Shown here piece after piece: positions 13,014 to 43,634 of a stretch of DNA of 50,333 nucleotides; within the stretch, counting starts at the first letter, position 1, and each line of letters opens with the position of its first letter. The notes beneath the pieces were generated by a model. That model ran no database searches. It was not told the DNA's origin and worked only from the letters and a program-made list of their open reading frames with translations. The translations under genes were made by a program, and so were the position numbers. Source of the DNA: a virus. Location of the stretch: the IMG/VR virus record IMGVR_UViG_3300049478_000004, positions 1-50,333 of that record; one strand, 5' to 3'.

Positions 13014-13859
13014 TTATTTCGCTCCTTTCTCGTTCAGATACTCGTCATAGAGATTCGGGTTTTCCTCGATGATCTTGGAAACCGCAGCCGCTTTTGTGAT
13101 CTTATCTTTGGTCGCCATGGCCTCTGCGGATTTCTCGATTTTCCCCCATGCGGTTGCGGGTTCGCCGCCTCCTGCGCTGCCGATCTCGGCAAACAGGCCG
13201 CCCTTGCTGAGTGCTACATCGGCGGCCTTGAGCACGGCCTCAACCTTTGCGTATTCGTCCGGGTTCGCCAGAGCTATTGCCTTGAGAACCGGCCCGAATT
13301 CGTCGGCTTTGATAGCGAGATTTTTATATGTGGCGGCTTTTTCGATGTACTCTTTGGTAACCTTCTCGTTTTCTGCCTTTTTAATCTGAGCTTCCAGCTC
13401 CTGTGCCTTTTTCGCCGTGTCCTCATGTTCCTTCCAGAGTGATTCCAAGGCGGGCTTGATATCCTCCGGCACACCATCGAGGTCGAGCGTTCCATCGGCC
13501 TTTGCCAGTGATTTCTTTTTCTTATCGCCGTATTCATAAGGCGTTGCATAACCGTAACCGGAAAGGTCTGCCAGCATCTTCATGACATTCTTTGGCATCT
13601 CATCCTTATATGCTGATAGCGTCTTGAGGACGCTCTTGCATGCTGCGGTGGCCTTGTCGGAAAGTTTGGCTTGCTTCATTACTTTGTCCACTTCCGGCTC
13701 GTTTTCGAGATCGGTTTCTAAGACCGATTTTAGGATTTCGTCGTAATTCATTTGATCTGTGCCTCCTTCGTCAGATTTTAATATTAAGAATTTCCGTTTA
13801 TTGGCGGCCTTGGGAACAAGGCTCACCTCGAACGTTTCAAGATTTGTGAGTTCGGCCAT
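13014..13859 (-). CDS. Scaffold-like protein starting with the tail end of an XkdF-type protease domain
   Basis: 281 residues. The first ~28 residues (ELTNLETFEVSLVPKAANKR) are the sequence that normally ends XkdF/S78-type prohead protease domains. They are followed by long, charged helices (residues ~145-175, KKAQELEAQIKKAENEK) and a disordered Lys/Ala-rich C-terminus, as in internal scaffolds. The start overlaps the 3' end of the giant protease gene by 23 bases, with AAGGAGG about nine bases upstream. It looks like re-initiation that splits one ancestral protease-scaffold polypeptide in two. Confidence 0.75.
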   Translation of the reverse strand: MAELTNLETFEVSLVPKAANKRKFLILKSDEGGTDQMNYDEILKSVLETDLENEPEVDKVMKQAKLSDKATAACKSVLKTLSAYKDEMPKNVMKMLADLSGYGYATPYEYGDKKKKSLAKADGTLDLDGVPEDIKPALESLWKEHEDTAKKAQELEAQIKKAENEKVTKEYIEKAATYKNLAIKADEFGPVLKAIALANPDEYAKVEAVLKAADVALSKGGLFAEIGSAGGGEPATAWGKIEKSAEAMATKDKITKAAAVSKIIEENPNLYDEYLNEKGAK

Positions 13860-16800
13860 CTCCTTTAGCCTCCTTCCTTATGCCATACCCGCCGACAGAG
13901 AATCCGGTATAATAACCGCTTTTTACGAGTTTCCAAAGGTCGGGGTCTGTTATTCTTACCGATATAACCCACGTTCCTTTCTTCACTTTCTGGTCATTTA
14001 ATGCGAAATCATCCGGGGCGATATAGCTTTCAACTAAATCTGCTTGTGCCTTTTTATGGTGCGAATCTCCAATGATGCGTGACTTCTCCATAAAGAAATG
14101 CGCTGCCATTTCGATTTCGTCCGGGGTCATATGGTCGCCCTGACTGTCGGTTGAGTTTGGTTCCAGCACGACTCCTGTTACAATCTGCTTTTCATCATCA
14201 GCCTTTAGGATGTCGGCATAGTATTGCTTTTCAATCTTGGCGGTCTGGACGTTTATTTTTTGCGGCTTTTCGCCGGGCAGTCCCCAGATTAACCATTTCT
14301 GCCCTTTTCCCTTTAACTCGCTTATTACATCAGCGAGGTCGTGGCTCTCTGCGTAAGGTGTTTGATCTGTCGGCTTATCTATAAGCCACACCCGGTTCTT
14401 GCCATCTCCAACCGGGGCGTATTCGAGAATGAATCGGCCTTTGAGCTTCTTACCGTCGATGAATAGCTCGATCATGTGCTCTCGCCACACACCGGTCTTA
14501 TATGTCCCGGTGTCCTCGGCCCAAAACTTGGCCCATGTGTTTGCCTCGCTGCCTACGCCTCCGGGCGGGCTCAAATATGGCTTTTTGGTTCCTACGTTCA
14601 GCCATTCGGCGGGCTGCTGCAGTTTGAATGTGCCCTGCAGATTGTCCTCCGGTGGGAGGTTTATAAGGCGATCTCCTCCGGGTTCCTTTCGGTTGTCTGC
14701 TGTGGTTCCAAGGAATACCGAAAATCCCCAGAGGCCGTCGTTTGATTGGAATCGAAGGTCACCGTGGAGGCTGTTGTCGGTGTTGAGGAGCTGCGCTTCG
14801 TTGAGGTCTTTTTCGTCCTCTGTGAGACCTCTCCAATGGTGCTGATATACGAACCGGCCCTCTCCGTCTGTCGGGGCCATGTCCTGCCAATTTTTAAGCC
14901 AGAAGTCCGTTGCGGCTGCGGCTCTGGTTCCGCCCTCCGCATCGTCCGCCTTTGTGACGTTGTCGTTTATGGCTCTTTGTATCTGTTTGAGTTTGCGGTT
15001 CAATTCGCCGCTGTCACCGAATCTCCGGATGGCGGTGGGGTGAGGCAGCACGAAATCGGCCTTTTCTCCCAGAGTTTTCTTCGCTGTTTGCCCTAAAGCG
15101 ACTATAATGTGGGGATTCGCTTTCGCCAACTCGTCATCGAGCCATTGTTTCCATTGTGCTATTTCCTCCGGATTCGGCTCTCGCACGTCGCCGGTTTCGT
15201 CGGTCAAGTAAAGCGGCACCACGTTTGTTATGAACACATCATTGCGGTTCAGGCCCAGCGGCTTTAAATATAAATCGTTGAATGTTGCGCCGGATGGCCC
15301 GACGAACGGCTCCCCTCTTGCGGCCTCGATCCTGCCGGGGCTGGCCCCTACAAATCCGATGGCTGCGTTGTCCGGGCCGCTGCTGGGTATGATGTCCGCC
15401 ACTTCCTTTTGGATCACCTTGCCTCGTTCCGCTATGTCGATGATCTGATTGCTTGAATATGGCTCTTTGCGTGTATCGTCTATGTCGAGGACGGTCGGCC
15501 CTAACCACGCCAGCGTTTTTGCTTCCTCATCTGGAATGAGTTCCAAAATCGAAACGGTGAGGATGTCGCCGGGTTTTGCGTCGATCTTTGTTGAGAAGGT
15601 CTTGCCTAGATCGATATATTCCTTGCCTTCGAATGTTTCCGTGTTGGCCCATTGCGGGCCCCCTGCGGATGGTGCTATGCCTCCGTAATAATTGAATATG
15701 CCCTTGTTTTTGGTTTCCTTTTTGTCCAATACAAGGACTTTTATTTCAACGATCCGCTTTAGCTTCGACCACTCGTTTGTGCCGCCCTTCTCATATGGGC
15801 CGGTCGGCGTTTTGGCAACGAGCCCCTCGCTTGCGTCCTGATTGAACGCCCATTTAACGGCTGTCTTGAGATCGTTTTCGTTGTTTACCCATCGAACCGG
15901 CGAGAGTTTGATGTCCCGGCTGCCGATGGTGTTGTATAGGCTTGTTAATGCATCCCGGCGTTCTGTGAATGGTTTTTGACTCAAATCCTCTTTGAAATAT
16001 GGGAGGTCAAAAAGCGTTAACACAACGGTTTCGTCCGGCTCAAACACCGGCTTATCCGCATTAAAACGCATCAGGTCAGGCCGGGATTCCCGCTTGCCGC
16101 CTCGTTCGATGCCGAGGTCTGCGTCCAGGATAAAGTCGCCATTTATTTTGGCGAGTTCTTCCTTGAGTTTCGGGAATTTGTCGATCATGTTGTCGCTGGG
16201 TTTCCCCTCAAACCAGAGCCGGATGTCTGCTCCGTCCTTCGTTACAATGCAACGGAAGCCGTTCCATTTCGGCTCGATATCGATCGGCCATTTATTGTCT
16301 ATCCATTTCAGGAGATCCGTCATGTCGAATGCTTCCGTGGTTCCTGCCATCTGCGGTTTCGGCGGAACGAATGCGATTGACGGTGATAGCTTTGCGATCT
16401 GCTCCTCTGCAGCTCCCGGTTTTTTCAGGACAGCATCGATATAATGCAGACCATTTGGCTCCTCCCGGTCGTTTACGCACACATTTTCAAAGCACGGCCT
16501 GTGTTCGATCAGCTCCGGGTTCGTCCAGAAGTCAAAACTGGCCTTATTAAAAAATGATTTGTGGCCCGGATGTGCAAAGGCTCCGTCTGTTTCCGTGCTG
16601 GGCACGGTGATTATGGCAAGGCCGCCCGGCATGAGGCTGCGGAATATTTCGGTCATTATGTTTTCTGTGTCCGGTAAATGCTCCAGAAAATGATTCGCCC
16701 TTATAACGGCAGCGGTGTCGCTCTGTATCGGGAGCCCATATCTCATATCCGTTACGATGTCGACTCCGTCGTAATTATCCGAATCGATCCCGATGAAACC

Positions 16801-17625
16801 GTCCGGCTTGCTGTTCCCGCATCCGAGGTCGTATCTGGGGCCCTCTGGGGCTTGTTCCTTGTACGTTTCCCAATCGGGCATACATGAGGCCCCTGTGTCT
16901 GCTTTTACGATTTCACGCTTGAATGTGGGCTTCCTACGCAGCACCAGATCATAGCAGGAAACATAATCGCCATGGCTGCCCTGCGGGTTCAAAATAAAAT
17001 GCAGGATGTCCTCTTTGTTCGGGTCGAGGATATTCCTTACCGGGAGCCACACATTATCGCTCTGGATGAGGTAATGCCCGCCCTCGTCCGATTCCGCCCT
17101 GAATAGAACGTCGATGTCGTTCGGGTTCTGTTTGTCCTTTGCTGCCGATCCTACGATCGAAACGAAATCACGCACCACCATGGTTTCCTTTGGCAGCGCA
17201 TAAAAATTCTTTACAATGTCATATTTTTTGGTGGGCTTGAAGTTCTCCACGGCCCGGTAAAGGTCGCCGGTCTGATCTATATCAAATTTGCGGTTCTTCA
17301 TTTCCTCAATAACCCAGATAGCAGCATTTACAAAGTTTTCGATGGCCTGATTCTTTTCCTTGGCTCCGCCATACCACTGATTGAGCCTATGCCATGCGGA
17401 TAATATTTCCGTATCGGGCGCATCGGTCAGAACGTCGGGCCGCATCTCCTCCAGTGTGAGCTTTTCAATCTGGGCGGCTTGTGCTTGCTGCTGTGTTCGT
17501 TTGTTGGCTCTGGCCTTGCCTCCCGATTGTGGAATCGCCGCTCGTTGAATCTCTGTAAACAGCCATTCCGGGAGGAATTCCTTTGCTTTATCAAGCATAG
17601 CCTCCAAATACTCAGACGATGGCAT
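13837..17625 (-). CDS. Giant capsid protease fused to nucleotidyltransferase, methyltransferase, DNA ligase, uracil-DNA glycosylase and LigD-like phosphoesterase domains
   Basis: 1262 residues, ATG at 17625 with GGAGGG upstream. Domains in order: nucleotidyltransferase-like ~100-240 (G159-S160, D170, D172 in NDIDVLF); SAM methyltransferase-like ~260-400 (DLGCGNSKPDGFIGID at 266-281, HFLEHLP); ATP-dependent DNA ligase ~440-715 (catalytic Lys453 in KWNGFR, EGLVAK at 600-605, later OB part); family 4/5 uracil-DNA glycosylase ~755-890 (GEPFVG at 771-776, HPTAIRRF at 862-869); LigD 3'-phosphoesterase-like ~920-1090 (His929/930, then H954-D956-R958 in LHGDLRF, IDGKKLKGRF at 1056-1065); XkdF protease ~1140-1250 (VTGVVLEPNSTDSQGDHMT). 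It occupies the prohead protease place between minor head protein and scaffold. The protease part could deliver the repair enzymes into the capsid; that is inference. Confidence 0.83.
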   Translation of the reverse strand: MPSSEYLEAMLDKAKEFLPEWLFTEIQRAAIPQSGGKARANKRTQQQAQAAQIEKLTLEEMRPDVLTDAPDTEILSAWHRLNQWYGGAKEKNQAIENFVNAAIWVIEEMKNRKFDIDQTGDLYRAVENFKPTKKYDIVKNFYALPKETMVVRDFVSIVGSAAKDKQNPNDIDVLFRAESDEGGHYLIQSDNVWLPVRNILDPNKEDILHFILNPQGSHGDYVSCYDLVLRRKPTFKREIVKADTGASCMPDWETYKEQAPEGPRYDLGCGNSKPDGFIGIDSDNYDGVDIVTDMRYGLPIQSDTAAVIRANHFLEHLPDTENIMTEIFRSLMPGGLAIITVPSTETDGAFAHPGHKSFFNKASFDFWTNPELIEHRPCFENVCVNDREEPNGLHYIDAVLKKPGAAEEQIAKLSPSIAFVPPKPQMAGTTEAFDMTDLLKWIDNKWPIDIEPKWNGFRCIVTKDGADIRLWFEGKPSDNMIDKFPKLKEELAKINGDFILDADLGIERGGKRESRPDLMRFNADKPVFEPDETVVLTLFDLPYFKEDLSQKPFTERRDALTSLYNTIGSRDIKLSPVRWVNNENDLKTAVKWAFNQDASEGLVAKTPTGPYEKGGTNEWSKLKRIVEIKVLVLDKKETKNKGIFNYYGGIAPSAGGPQWANTETFEGKEYIDLGKTFSTKIDAKPGDILTVSILELIPDEEAKTLAWLGPTVLDIDDTRKEPYSSNQIIDIAERGKVIQKEVADIIPSSGPDNAAIGFVGASPGRIEAARGEPFVGPSGATFNDLYLKPLGLNRNDVFITNVVPLYLTDETGDVREPNPEEIAQWKQWLDDELAKANPHIIVALGQTAKKTLGEKADFVLPHPTAIRRFGDSGELNRKLKQIQRAINDNVTKADDAEGGTRAAAATDFWLKNWQDMAPTDGEGRFVYQHHWRGLTEDEKDLNEAQLLNTDNSLHGDLRFQSNDGLWGFSVFLGTTADNRKEPGGDRLINLPPEDNLQGTFKLQQPAEWLNVGTKKPYLSPPGGVGSEANTWAKFWAEDTGTYKTGVWREHMIELFIDGKKLKGRFILEYAPVGDGKNRVWLIDKPTDQTPYAESHDLADVISELKGKGQKWLIWGLPGEKPQKINVQTAKIEKQYYADILKADDEKQIVTGVVLEPNSTDSQGDHMTPDEIEMAAHFFMEKSRIIGDSHHKKAQADLVESYIAPDDFALNDQKVKKGTWVISVRITDPDLWKLVKSGYYTGFSVGGYGIRKEAKGDGRTHKS

Positions 17626-17639
17626 AGGTGCTTCCCTCC

Positions 17640-17663
17640 TTTACTCTTTTACTCCTTTACTCC
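17640..17663 (-). repeat. Octamer array, 3 units
   Basis: TTTACTCT, TTTACTCC, TTTACTCC (plus strand). It supplies the TAA stop of the minor head gene (17657-17659) and the leader of the giant protease gene, which carries its own GGAGGG closer to the ATG. Confidence 0.9.
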
Positions 17664-18586
17664 TTGAACCGAACGCCAAGCGTACAACGGCATGAAGGGT
17701 GCAATGGTGGAGTATCTATGTTTCCGGCTGCTGTGCTGAAAGGCTGGCCCAGCGTGGTAGTTACGCCCGCCATTTCCTTGCACTTGTCACAAAGTCGGTC
17801 ATCCGGTGTTAAAATCCAATATATTTCGTATGTGCTCGGCGGCAGGATTCCTTGATCGGCACCTTGCTGCAGCATCTCGTTAAATCCTTGATTCGAGGCC
17901 CGCATGAGTTCCGTCCGTGCTATATTCTCGGCCCTATATTGAAGCAGCCGTTTTGAATATTTATCCGCCATTGTCTGGGCTCGTTCGTATTTCTTGCCGC
18001 TTGAGATCAGCCGGTCACGATAGTTGGTAACGGCTCCCGCTTGCCGGGTCGTGAGTCCGATAAGTGATTTCAAATGTTCGGCTGTCTTGTCCGCTCCATA
18101 ACCAGCTTCCGCCGCCGATCGGACTGCCTCCCGAAGTGCGAGGACGGTTTCATTCGAGACTTCCGTTACTAACTCCGCTGTTCTGGCCTTTATCCATGAA
18201 AGGCTCCGGGGTGATCCGGTATCGAACACAACGTCCCTTTGCTCCATCGGAAGCGTGACAATCATTTCCTGTCCGCTCCGGTTCAGCGTGTCCTCCATCA
18301 ATGGTTCTGCTGCCGTGAGTTCGGCCTTGAATGCATCCCATGGCACGGCGTTTTCGATCTTGACTGAATCGTTGTTATATATCCCCTGCAGCATTTGCTT
18401 GATGTCAGCCTCGCTGCGGGTCTTATCGGCTGCCCTGATCACCATATCCGTCATGGCTTCGGTGTTCTTATCGGCTGCCGCTTGTATGATTTTCCATGCC
18501 CTGCTGTTCGGCGTTTTATCTGCGATCGGGCCGCCTGTGTGCAGCTCCGGTGGTTGGATATCTTTTTGTTTAAAGATCCACGGCAT
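17657..18586 (-). CDS. Minor head / head morphogenesis protein (Mu gpF-like)
   Basis: 309 residues. The C-terminal part has the family signature: ENIARTELMRASNQG, then DDRLCDKCKEMAG and PPLHPSCRCTLGV, with three cysteines and a histidine that probably bind zinc. The helical N-terminal half resembles the portal-binding part of SPP1 gp7/Mu gpF proteins. It lies downstream of the portal, separated by three small accessory genes. Involved in head assembly and DNA ejection in relatives. Confidence 0.9.
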   Translation of the reverse strand: MPWIFKQKDIQPPELHTGGPIADKTPNSRAWKIIQAAADKNTEAMTDMVIRAADKTRSEADIKQMLQGIYNNDSVKIENAVPWDAFKAELTAAEPLMEDTLNRSGQEMIVTLPMEQRDVVFDTGSPRSLSWIKARTAELVTEVSNETVLALREAVRSAAEAGYGADKTAEHLKSLIGLTTRQAGAVTNYRDRLISSGKKYERAQTMADKYSKRLLQYRAENIARTELMRASNQGFNEMLQQGADQGILPPSTYEIYWILTPDDRLCDKCKEMAGVTTTLGQPFSTAAGNIDTPPLHPSCRCTLGVRFKE

Positions 18587-18636: not shown

Positions 18637-18759
18637 TTAGGCAGATTCTTCCGCTGATTTTGGAATCTCTGCGCCGCATGTCTGGCAGTCCCACGGCTGA
18701 TCGGTTGTATCGGATGAATACCAATATTCTCCGCATTCCGGGCATTTACGCTTTACCAT
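18637..18759 (-). CDS. Small zinc-ribbon protein (40 residues)
   Basis: Reads MVKRKCPECGEYWYSSDT...WDCQTCGAEIPK with two CxxC pairs 18 residues apart, a rubredoxin-like knuckle. Start has AGGAGG at good spacing. It is between Acb2-like and minor head genes, in the late operon. Function unknown. Confidence 0.72.
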   Translation of the reverse strand: MVKRKCPECGEYWYSSDTTDQPWDCQTCGAEIPKSAEESA

Positions 18760-18770
18760 GACTGTTCCTC

Positions 18771-19034
18771 CTATTCATTCCGGGCGATGGCTGCATTGGC
18801 CCACATGATGGATTCCTCCAACTTCGTTAAAAATAAGCTCTGCTCTCTGGATGGCGGGGTGTTCTCCAAAATCAGATAAGCCATCTCCTTTGCTGCGTCC
18901 CTGATTTTCTGGTATCGTTCGACCTGATCGCCCTTTGGAGGATGATAGGTGAATTTACTCTCGATATCGCTGCGGCCTCCTCGGATAAATTCCTTGCGGG
19001 CCGGGCTGCGTTTGTATTCATAGGACTCTGCCAT
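18771..19034 (-). CDS. Acb2/Tad1-type hairpin protein, putative cyclic-nucleotide sponge against CBASS or Thoeris
   Basis: 87 residues. The C-terminal two thirds fit the Acb2/Tad1 hairpin family: FTYHPPKGDQVERYQKIRDA (28-47), then a helix with NTPPSREQSLFLTKLEESI (58-76) and MWANAAIARNE (77-87). Proteins of this family form small helical oligomers that bind cyclic di- and trinucleotides or gcADPR and so blunt CBASS/Thoeris signalling. The N-terminal 25 residues are basic and not part of the core. It sits in the late head operon beside a SpoIIID-like gene. The family call comes from remembered motif patterns, not from a search; which ligand it binds is unknown. Confidence 0.78.
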   Translation of the reverse strand: MAESYEYKRSPARKEFIRGGRSDIESKFTYHPPKGDQVERYQKIRDAAKEMAYLILENTPPSREQSLFLTKLEESIMWANAAIARNE

Positions 19035-19050: not shown

Positions 19051-19311
19051 TCAGCAAGCTGTTCTGATCATTTCGAATTTGTCATGAGTGGCCTTACCGC
19101 CGTTGATATGGCGCACGGCTTTGTGGCGTTCCATAATAACCGCCACCTCATAGGACAGGTCTGGGTCGATATCCGGAAGCCGATATCTCAAATCTTTGTG
19201 GATGGTGGATTTTGAATAACCCAATTCCGTCATGGCCTGTCTAATCGTTTTGTTTGTTTCAACGATATAGTTTCCAATTCTTACGGCACGTTCTTCGATG
19301 TTCTCTCTCAT
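19051..19311 (-). CDS. SpoIIID-like sporulation transcription regulator
   Basis: 86 residues from the ATG at 19311 (GGAGG ten bases upstream); an upstream GTG at 19329 lacks a site. The sequence closely follows Bacillus SpoIIID: IEERAVRIGNYIVETNKTIR, YSKSTIHKDLRYRLPDIDPD and HKAVRHINGGKATHDKF. The STIHKDL segment is the recognition helix of the HTH. SpoIIID in the host switches mother-cell genes between SigE and SigK stages. Here it lies between portal and Acb2-like genes in the late operon, so it would be made during particle production. The similarity is strong; the phage role is unknown. Confidence 0.87.
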   Translation of the reverse strand: MRENIEERAVRIGNYIVETNKTIRQAMTELGYSKSTIHKDLRYRLPDIDPDLSYEVAVIMERHKAVRHINGGKATHDKFEMIRTAC

Positions 19312-19329
19312 CGTTTTGTCATCCTCCAC

Positions 19330-20598
19330 TTATTTATTAATTGGCAAATTGGCGAGCTTCAGGAGGTACTTCTCCAGCTCCTCGTTCGGGAACAGCGGCA
19401 TACCGGCCCCGGAAAGATCACTCAGATATTTGCCAAGTTCTTCTAACGGAATCGATTCAATATCGCCCGGCACGATCGCCGGTAATGCTTCGATGCTGAA
19501 TGAGTTCAGTTCAAAAAGGCGGGGCACGGCATATCTGTTGAACACGTCGGCTATGCTGTTTAACCATGCCCCGATCGCCACGGCGAATAATTCCGTCTTA
19601 CTGCTTGAAAGTGCGAAACTGCCGACGTTCTTTGTGCCTAAAAGGATAAAATCTGCCAGAACCGTCATTGCGATCCGGCTGTCGTATCTCTGGACAATGG
19701 TGTCGGTGTCAAACTGGCGACGGCCTCCGGTTGATAGCAGGGTAAGGTCATAAATTTTATTATTGTTCTCGTCATATGAAAGCGGGAACACAATTCCTTC
19801 CTGCTCATCCCGGCGAATATTGCGGACGATCTTCTTTATCTCCGCTAATACGGCCTTGTCCCCTGCGCTGGCTGTACTATCCAGAAGCTCCGCTGGCACC
19901 CAAGCCACCGGCAGACCGGCGAGGTCACGCTCGATGCCGATGCCCTCTATGCTCTCGATATTTTTCTTGTAATACCATGGGCGATACGCATTACGCAGAA
20001 CGCTCCGGCCCTCCGGGTTTCCCTTGCGGGTTACTGTCCGGAACAGCAGGGCCTTTTCCATAGGTATGCGGACGAGCTCATATGTCGGCGGCCCCATCTG
20101 CCACATGGCGATAATGTCGCCCGCTTCGTCAAACTCCCACTCGTTGAGCGTTTCCTGCGCTCTGATCGGTATCTTGCGCCAGCCGATGCGTCCGTCATTG
20201 AATCGGCTGTGTGTTTTCGGGTCTGCGGTCGGGCCTAATCTCCGTTTATAAACGAGTTCGTGATAGCTCCATCCGAACACCAACATGCTCAAAATTTCGC
20301 AGATCAGTTCGCTCCACGGCTGGTTCATGTCGTTCATGCAACTATCAAGAAAATCTGCCGCCTCTGTGTCCTTGTCTGAATCGCTCACTGGTTCGACTTG
20401 CCATAAAACTTGCCGAATTAGCATTTCTATTGCAAAAAGGATAGAGCCCACGGTTGGGTCGTTATCCCGCATTTCCTTATATGTCCGGATTCCTTTTAGC
20501 CCTTGGAGTTGTGTGAGCTGCTCCTCGTAAACATAACCAGCCGCCCGATCGAGGCCGGTGTTGCCTAGCTCCATGTACATTCTTCCGTTAATTGCCAA
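19330..20598 (-). CDS. Portal protein (DUF935/Mu gp29-like)
   Basis: 422 residues between large terminase and the head genes. The opening (EEQLTQLQGLKGIRTYKEMRDND) and the segment MLVFGWSYHELVYKRRLG match DUF935-type portals, in which 'fGwsyhEivyk' is characteristic. The length fits a dodecameric portal subunit. The C-terminal ~60 residues are probably the tunnel and crown. Confidence 0.88.
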   Translation of the reverse strand: MAINGRMYMELGNTGLDRAAGYVYEEQLTQLQGLKGIRTYKEMRDNDPTVGSILFAIEMLIRQVLWQVEPVSDSDKDTEAADFLDSCMNDMNQPWSELICEILSMLVFGWSYHELVYKRRLGPTADPKTHSRFNDGRIGWRKIPIRAQETLNEWEFDEAGDIIAMWQMGPPTYELVRIPMEKALLFRTVTRKGNPEGRSVLRNAYRPWYYKKNIESIEGIGIERDLAGLPVAWVPAELLDSTASAGDKAVLAEIKKIVRNIRRDEQEGIVFPLSYDENNNKIYDLTLLSTGGRRQFDTDTIVQRYDSRIAMTVLADFILLGTKNVGSFALSSSKTELFAVAIGAWLNSIADVFNRYAVPRLFELNSFSIEALPAIVPGDIESIPLEELGKYLSDLSGAGMPLFPNEELEKYLLKLANLPINK

Positions 20599-20620: not shown

Positions 20621-21928
20621 TTAGTCCCATGATGATGTGCCTGTGATGCCTGTCGGTTTCACCCTTTTTGCGGGTTGTTTCCCTAACAGCAGGGCGGTCA
20701 ATGCATGAACCATTGCGTCTAATCTGTCCGGGCTGTCCTCTGCTCCGGGCACCCATGTTGTCATCTGATCCTCAAGAACCGCAATGCTGCCGATATGGTG
20801 AACACGGCCCTGCTCGTAAAGCGAGGAGATCGGCTCCGCTCTGGTTTGCTTGCCCCGGCTTGCGTGGATCAACTTGACCGGAACATTCGGGTCTACTGTG
20901 TGAATGGTAAAAGAGACCATGTCTCCGCCCTGATTGCTCTCCGCCACGACGTAATCGGCATCGTGATCGTAATAGGCATCGACCACTCGCTTGGCCCATG
21001 CTGCGGGCTTTAGTTGCCCGGAATAATCCGCCAGAATAAAACCTTCTATTGCTTTTGAACCGGCGACAATGATTCCGGTTTCGTCGGAGTCCTCGTTCGT
21101 GGAAACTGCCGGGTCTACTCCGATAACGATTCGGTCAAGTTCCGGCTGCTCGTTCACCCTGTGTAAATCCAGAATTGCCCTTGTCCAAAGGGCTCCCGGC
21201 GTATCGTCGAGAATTTCTGCGTTGAGTTCCTGTCTGCCGAGGCGTGTTCCCTCATACTTTGAAATGATGGTACTTAAAAATATTTTGGATAGATTCTCCG
21301 CATTGTCGTATGTGCTGCCCCTTGTGATCACCGTTCCCGGCGTTTTCATTATTTCCTTGAGGATTTTAATGGGCTTTGGTGTGGTAGTGACTACGCATTG
21401 CGGATTATCCCCTAAACGGAGGCCCAGCATCAGCATGTCGTATGCCTCCGGATATCTCCAAGAACACAGTTCGTCGGCCCATGCGGTGTCATTGTTCGGG
21501 CCTCTCAATCGCTCCGGTTCGTCCGCCGAGTAAACTGTCGCCGTTGCGCCGGTGTAGAAGGTCAGCCGCCGCTTCGATGGCTCGTATATGGGCCGGTATG
21601 ATTTTGGGAACACGTTGAGGATTCCGCTTTCGCCCTCGACCATGATGTCCCTTCCGTCTGCCGCTGTCGGCGCGACAAGGGCGATTCTCGCTGCCTGTTT
21701 GGTTTCCACCCGGTATCTTATCCATTCGGCCCCGGTGCGGGTCTTACCGAAGCCACGGCCCGCTAATATGAGCCAGACGATCCACGGCATGTCCGGAGGC
21801 TTTTGTTCTGGCCTCGCTATCCCGATTTTTCCCATCCAGTCATAATTCAGGGCCATGAGTTCTTTATCTTCCATGAGCATTACGCCATTCCGGATCATGG
21901 TCTTATTGCGCCTCTGCTCCTTTGTCAT
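20621..21928 (-). CDS. terL: Terminase large subunit
   Basis: 435 residues. Walker A is GRGFGKTRTGAEW (residues 57-69). A Walker-B-like region (NNDTAWADELCSW) and the coupling motif follow. The nuclease domain contains VIGVDPAVSTNEDSDETG with the acidic metal-binding residues of an RNase H-like fold. It translocates DNA into the prohead and cuts the concatemer. Its start overlaps the stop of the small subunit by four bases. Confidence 0.95.
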   Translation of the reverse strand: MTKEQRRNKTMIRNGVMLMEDKELMALNYDWMGKIGIARPEQKPPDMPWIVWLILAGRGFGKTRTGAEWIRYRVETKQAARIALVAPTAADGRDIMVEGESGILNVFPKSYRPIYEPSKRRLTFYTGATATVYSADEPERLRGPNNDTAWADELCSWRYPEAYDMLMLGLRLGDNPQCVVTTTPKPIKILKEIMKTPGTVITRGSTYDNAENLSKIFLSTIISKYEGTRLGRQELNAEILDDTPGALWTRAILDLHRVNEQPELDRIVIGVDPAVSTNEDSDETGIIVAGSKAIEGFILADYSGQLKPAAWAKRVVDAYYDHDADYVVAESNQGGDMVSFTIHTVDPNVPVKLIHASRGKQTRAEPISSLYEQGRVHHIGSIAVLEDQMTTWVPGAEDSPDRLDAMVHALTALLLGKQPAKRVKPTGITGTSSWD

Positions 21929-42701: not shown

Positions 42702-42749
42702 CACATGGTTCAGGGCAAACAAAAAATAAACTTTGTGGGGTATACGAAA

Positions 42750-43634
42750 ATGGCTAACGATATGATAAAGAATCAAAACTTCGGTGTTGAAATCGAATTT
42801 AACGGCATCACTCGTTCGGACGCTTGTGAAGCGATCGCGGTTGCGATGAATTGGTCGGCCCCGGAATTTACGCTCTCTTATTACACCTATACTACTAAAG
42901 ACGAGCAGGGCCGTTCGTGGAAGGTCATGCGGGATGCCTCAGTCAATGGCTCCGATGATTGCAAATGCGAACTGGTCACGCCGATCCTGAATTACTCCGA
43001 TATCGAAACGCTTCAGGCCGTCGTTCGTGTGATCCGCAAAGCGGGCGGCAAGGTCGACAACTCCACTGGCCTCCATATCCATGTTGACAAGGCCAATCAT
43101 ACAGCTGCTACGCTTCGTAACCTCATCAATATCGTTGCTTCAAAGGAAGCCCTTATTAATAAAGCATTCGCGGTCAAGGGCGAAAGACTCACCCGCTGGT
43201 GCCGTCCGGTCGATAAAACACTTGTCGAGAAGGTCAATAGCCAGAAGCCGAAAACAATTCAGGCCCTCGGAGAACTCTGGTATGCCGGTTATAATGACCG
43301 ATACACGCATTACTCATCCAGCCGTTACCATGGCTTAAACCTCCACAATGTGTGGTACGCTCATACGGTCGAATTCCGGTATTTCAATTCCACGCTTCAC
43401 GCTGGCAAGGTCAAGGCTTACATTCAGTTTTGTCTCGCTGTATCGGCACAGGCCATCGTGCAAAAATCAGCCAGCCCGATTCAAACGGTCAGCTCCAATG
43501 AGAAATATACCTTTAGAACTTGGATGCTCCGGCTGGGCCTCATTGGTAAGGAATTCGAAACTTGCCGCCTCCATCTCCTCGCCAATCTCGACGGCGATAT
43601 CGCATTCCATGATGGAAGACCGAGAGCTTGCTAA
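42750..43634 (+). CDS. Amidoligase (Amidoligase_2, glutamine-synthetase-like fold)
   Basis: 294 residues. NFGVEIEFNGITRSDACEAI opens with the family's metal-binding 'GvEiEf'. WKVMRDASVNG-CELVTPIL (KxxxDxS and E-VTP) and STGLHIHVDKANHTA (GLHIHV) are the further conserved catalytic stretches, and the ending has HTVEFRYFNSTL. Such COOH-NH2 ligases use ATP to join amino acids to carboxylates and are often encoded with AIG2/GGCT proteins. Substrate unknown. Confidence 0.9.
   Translation: MANDMIKNQNFGVEIEFNGITRSDACEAIAVAMNWSAPEFTLSYYTYTTKDEQGRSWKVMRDASVNGSDDCKCELVTPILNYSDIETLQAVVRVIRKAGGKVDNSTGLHIHVDKANHTAATLRNLINIVASKEALINKAFAVKGERLTRWCRPVDKTLVEKVNSQKPKTIQALGELWYAGYNDRYTHYSSSRYHGLNLHNVWYAHTVEFRYFNSTLHAGKVKAYIQFCLAVSAQAIVQKSASPIQTVSSNEKYTFRTWMLRLGLIGKEFETCRLHLLANLDGDIAFHDGRPRAC

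Follow-up and report, generated by a model that had tools for sequence, protein, structure and literature searches.

An Acb2-type hairpin protein encoded among the head genes of a phage

In a 50,333-nucleotide window of viral DNA (the whole stretch analysed here, positions 1 to 50,333 of IMG/VR record IMGVR_UViG_3300049478_000004), the minus strand encodes an 87-aa protein (P0001; 18771–19034) that adds a new member to the established Acb2 family and is, to judge from its sequence and a structural model, very probably a nucleotide sponge directed against CBASS. As we picture it, the protein would fold as a helical hairpin, would assemble into a multimer as Acb2 does (a hexamer), and would bind, rather than cut, the cyclic di- and/or trinucleotides produced by CBASS enzymes; CBASS effectors would then remain off and the infection would not be aborted by the host. 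The sponge would be made along with the head genes from a terminase–portal–MuF operon.

The gene has an ATG start with AAGGAG about 12 bases 5' of it, and the conserved domain of its product spans residues 24–87. The preliminary description of this DNA had placed the ORF at exactly these positions, without a strand, and the segments that it quoted (YHPPKGDQVERY, NTPPSRE and KLEESIMWANAAIAR) are all found in the translation; conservation of YHPPKGDQ across IMG/VR loci is partly ascertainment, as this peptide was one search seed. Megablast of half of the window against phages gave no match, and a tRNA search of the phage sequence found none.

Family assignment and predicted fold

That the protein is of the Acb2 type is well supported by its profile score, its predicted hairpin and the key pocket positions it has kept. 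The Acb2/Tad1 hairpin family PF24729 matches residues 29–85 at 70.3 bits (E 1.6e-19, against a cut-off of 27 bits) over 58 of 58 model positions, far beyond chance, which bears out the profile search that had been proposed as a check. T4 Vs.4, an Acb2 proven by experiment, has an equal score on the same model (71.4 bits). The PHROGs family phrog_1454, listed with function unknown, matches the protein at 88 bits. A profile made from relatives alone, with all known Acb2 proteins left out, reached PDB entry 9ptq, "Acb2 homolog 43" (E 3.5e-5). A match to 7uq2 by the first profile (A1) was discarded as circular, T4 Vs.4 being among the A1 sequences.

An AlphaFold model built with 33 relatives is a two-helix hairpin, with helices at residues 35–58 and 63–84 predicted at high confidence (mean pLDDT 81, and about 92–95 across residues 41–80) and a less certain N-terminal stretch. 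This fits the two long antiparallel helices described for Acb2 (PMC12043709). A Foldseek search against the PDB returned no match at E <= 0.001, the fold being too simple to be informative. VIA-align superposed T4 Vs.4 over 56 residues with an rmsd of 2.9, and the resulting Z of 5.8 lies inside helical-hairpin noise, with unrelated hairpins ranking higher; T4 Vs.4 had the highest sequence identity (23%) in that list.

The model is all helical, with no beta domain, and the sequence ahead of the hairpin domain is only about 27 residues long; because the beta domain is absent, we regard the protein as Acb2-type rather than Tad1. The label originally given, Acb2/Tad1-like, thus holds in its Acb2 half, whereas its Tad1 half is not supported, nor is inhibition of Thoeris through gcADPR, which we do not expect. 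A Tad1-like sponge for gcADPR that blocks Thoeris would have in its favor that the PF24729 hairpin family is common to both groups and that the Acb2-free profile of relatives also matches Tad1 hairpins, weakly (E 0.04). However, Tad1 has an antiparallel beta-sheet domain at its N terminus, and its gcADPR pocket is reported to be formed by conserved loops together with helices of the hairpin from the partner protomer (PMC12043709); no such N-terminal domain is present in the 87-aa protein, and we consider this reading most improbable. A hairpin relative with a layout that recalls Tad1 does occur at locus L026 (5707–6252, plus strand), where an extra N-terminal domain of ~90 residues, with no Pfam match, is fused to the hairpin.

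The nearest sequence in the PDB is Acb2 homolog 43, which shares the short loop and the P-x-G/S-R-E-K/Q-S...TKLEE motif, although its chain has 76 aa and the alignment is restricted to the hairpin. With the Tad1 hairpin domain (PDB 7uav, 8kbg), the protein has in common the second-helix motif SRE...T..EEA.MW.N. T4 Acb2 (Vs.4, PDB 7uq2) is almost the same length (88 aa versus 87) but only 26% identical, with a longer loop between the helices (about 20 residues), and T4 vs.4 lies outside any head operon, unlike the gene described here. The Acb2 of Pseudomonas phages PaMx33/PaP2 (p26; PDB 8ixz, 8h2j) likewise has a longer inter-helix region, and its overall identity is low. Mycobacteriophage Xandras gp101 is 38% identical over 68 aligned columns and was named a CBASS antagonist by its annotators (PMC11953737); its gene has those for a ClpP-like protease and SSB as neighbors instead of head genes. 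The same name has been given by annotators to relatives in mycobacteriophages and in a Microbacterium phage. Our literature search found no binding or plaque report on any relative more than 40% identical.

Nucleotide-pocket positions

To compare pocket positions, we aligned 56 matched domains with the T4 and PaMx33 Acb2 proteins. Residue Y30 aligns with T4 Y8 and PaMx33 Y11, and position 30 is Tyr in 48 of the 53 aligned relatives that have a residue there. The T4 substitution Y8A abolishes dinucleotide binding and leaves Panoptes untriggered (PMC12657218; PMC12657230). Residue T70 aligns with T4 T68, at which T68M lowers affinity (PMC12657230), and the PaMx33 protein also has Thr at this position. 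The basic residue R45 (Arg in 50/54 relatives) aligns with Lys in both references, K23 of T4 and K26 of PaMx33, and R63 aligns with PaMx33 R67 and with the Arg of homolog 43 and of Tad1, whereas T4 has Asp (D61). Both K26 and R67 are positions that we take to have a role in PaMx33 Acb2. A point against the sponge reading is that the base-stacking F82 of T4 Acb2 is replaced by A84, although PaMx33 Acb2 has Ala there too.

Positions 63 and 70 vary together. R63 is found in each of the 38 domains with T70, and A63 in each of the ten with R70 (Fisher p 1e-9, a value that does not count independent events, and shared ancestry may explain part of it); most of the R70 rows also have Arg at position 73. 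The 87-aa protein is of the R63/T70 type, like PaMx33 Acb2. Within the short-loop clade, this switch between R63/T70 and A63/R70 is a candidate marker, at the level of sequence, for two types of pocket that may differ in specificity, and as such it is a clear candidate for a specificity determinant and one accessible to binding assays.

Head-operon context

On the minus strand, the genes run from a DNA methyltransferase with a ParB domain and a 172-aa gene to the terminase large subunit (TerL; 20621–21928, PF03237 and PF17289), the portal protein (19330–20598; PF06074 at 114 bits, phrog_113), a SpoIIID-like DNA-binding protein (19051–19329; PF12116 at 97.2 bits, phrog_11726), the Acb2-type protein, a Cys4 zinc-ribbon protein of 40 aa (18637–18759) and a MuF-like head morphogenesis protein (17657–18586; PF04233, phrog_3517), followed by a 1262-aa ORF, a scaffold and the major head protein. 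No promoter-like site was found on the minus strand from TerL to MuF, and these genes are therefore probably co-transcribed. Expression of the Acb2-type gene would presumably be late, as far as its position tells, and CBASS, as the preliminary description supposed, might fire late in infection. The placement in a head operon that had been remarked on is real, with portal and TerL on one side and MuF on the other, but it is not unique, as relatives elsewhere also adjoin portal or terminase genes.

The zinc-ribbon gene, directly downstream of the Acb2-type gene, has GGAGG 5' of its ATG and encodes a CPECG...CQTCG motif; its zinc-ribbon matches are weak and below Pfam cut-offs. It likely belongs to the same inserted cassette as the Acb2-type gene. 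Directly upstream, the SpoIIID-like gene is listed with a GTG start, although the ATG at 19311, which follows GTGGAGGA, is the likelier one, and its stop codon lies 16 bases 5' of the Acb2-type gene. This tight pairing within one operon could be taken to mean that cyclic dinucleotides of the host itself (e.g., c-di-AMP) are the main target of the sponge, which would steer sporulation or physiology together with its SpoIIID-like neighbor, and Acb2 proteins can indeed bind 3'3'-cAA (PMC12043709) and 2',3'-c-di-AMP (PMC12657218). The pairing was seen, however, only in this phage: no SpoIIID-like gene was detected within the fetched flanks of the 80 loci with a related portal described below, nor at the other 38 hairpin loci, and counter-defence is the known biology of Acb2. 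We hold a host-directed role to be very unlikely.

In the 1262-aa ORF (13837–17625, minus strand), Pfam domains of an ATP-dependent ligase, a methyltransferase and a uracil-DNA-glycosylase (UDG) are combined with a prohead protease of the XkdF type at the C terminus. The product resembles a polyprotein, from which enzymes could be set free in the capsid, and long versions of the ORF are present in three of the portal-related contigs (L054, L055, L060).

Accessory status and the placement of relatives

We compared the locus with 80 IMG/VR contigs that carry a related portal (50%–66% identity), using fetched flanks of up to 5 kb per side. Within these flanks, the hairpin gene was found in none of the 80, and the portal is joined directly to MuF in 50 of the 59 contigs having both genes. 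On this comparison, the stretch of SpoIIID-like, Acb2-type and zinc-ribbon genes is an insert here and not a conserved part of the head module. We take the Acb2-type gene to be probable accessory cargo and not a component of the head.

By tblastn, relatives of the protein occur in 321 phage records, chiefly from phages of Mycobacterium, Paenibacillus and Gordonia; a few plasmids carry relatives as well. Some lie directly after the portal (Gordonia phages ChisanaKitsune and UBSmoodge) or just 5' of the terminase (Mycobacterium phages RonRayGun, Mitti and Aminay; Arthrobacter phage Jasmine), and in nine IMG/VR loci they adjoin or lie near portal, TerL or MuF (L002, L003, L005, L007, L012, L014, L016, L019, L031). 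Others are in replication or metabolism modules (phages Bob, Heath, JSwag and Jenst; loci L008, L017, L020, L028, L034). Among records of at least 20 kb with a detected TerL or portal, those without a detected marker dropping out, the hairpin gene is nearer to TerL or portal than random placement predicts (14 records, the window excluded; Fisher p about 0.014), a modest signal that is suggestive of proximity to head and packaging genes.

This proximity, and the fact that several unrelated phages have a relative adjoining portal or terminase, would also be expected of a virion-assembly or packaging factor, such as a terminase or portal accessory, that uses the hairpin fold but has lost nucleotide binding, its placement reflecting its role. 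Against such a factor, the gene was missing from every fetched flank of the portal relatives, where portal and MuF usually abut, other relatives are housed in replication or DNA-metabolism modules, and Y30 and T70 of the nucleotide pocket are conserved; we judge it unlikely. An Acb2-type sponge carried as cargo is the reading that we prefer. A more elaborate version, in which members of the hairpin clade are head-linked sponges produced late, together with portal and MuF, and perhaps carried in the particle and ejected, seems to us very unlikely. If it were true, the next infected cell would receive a ready-made CBASS antagonist along with the DNA, and this would be the reason why unrelated phages independently came to place the gene next to portal or terminase. 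The recurrent adjacency raises, in any case, the question, open to experiment, of whether counter-defence can be late or tied to the virion.

Many database records name members of this clade phosphomannomutase or hypothetical. Given these mislabelled records and the listing of phrog_1454 as function unknown, hundreds of phage genomes would seem to carry a likely CBASS antagonist that is unannotated. The name "putative phosphomannomutase" on family members (MH460826, KT151955 and others) is a misannotation of a hairpin protein of ~70 aa. In two Gordonia loci (L131, 3989–6253; L136, 3989–6292), the hairpin gene directly past the portal is followed by genes for an RNA ligase and for a VIP2-like ADP-ribosyltransferase. 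Elsewhere in the window, the plus strand at 42705–43634 encodes a protein of the Amidoligase_2 family (217 bits).
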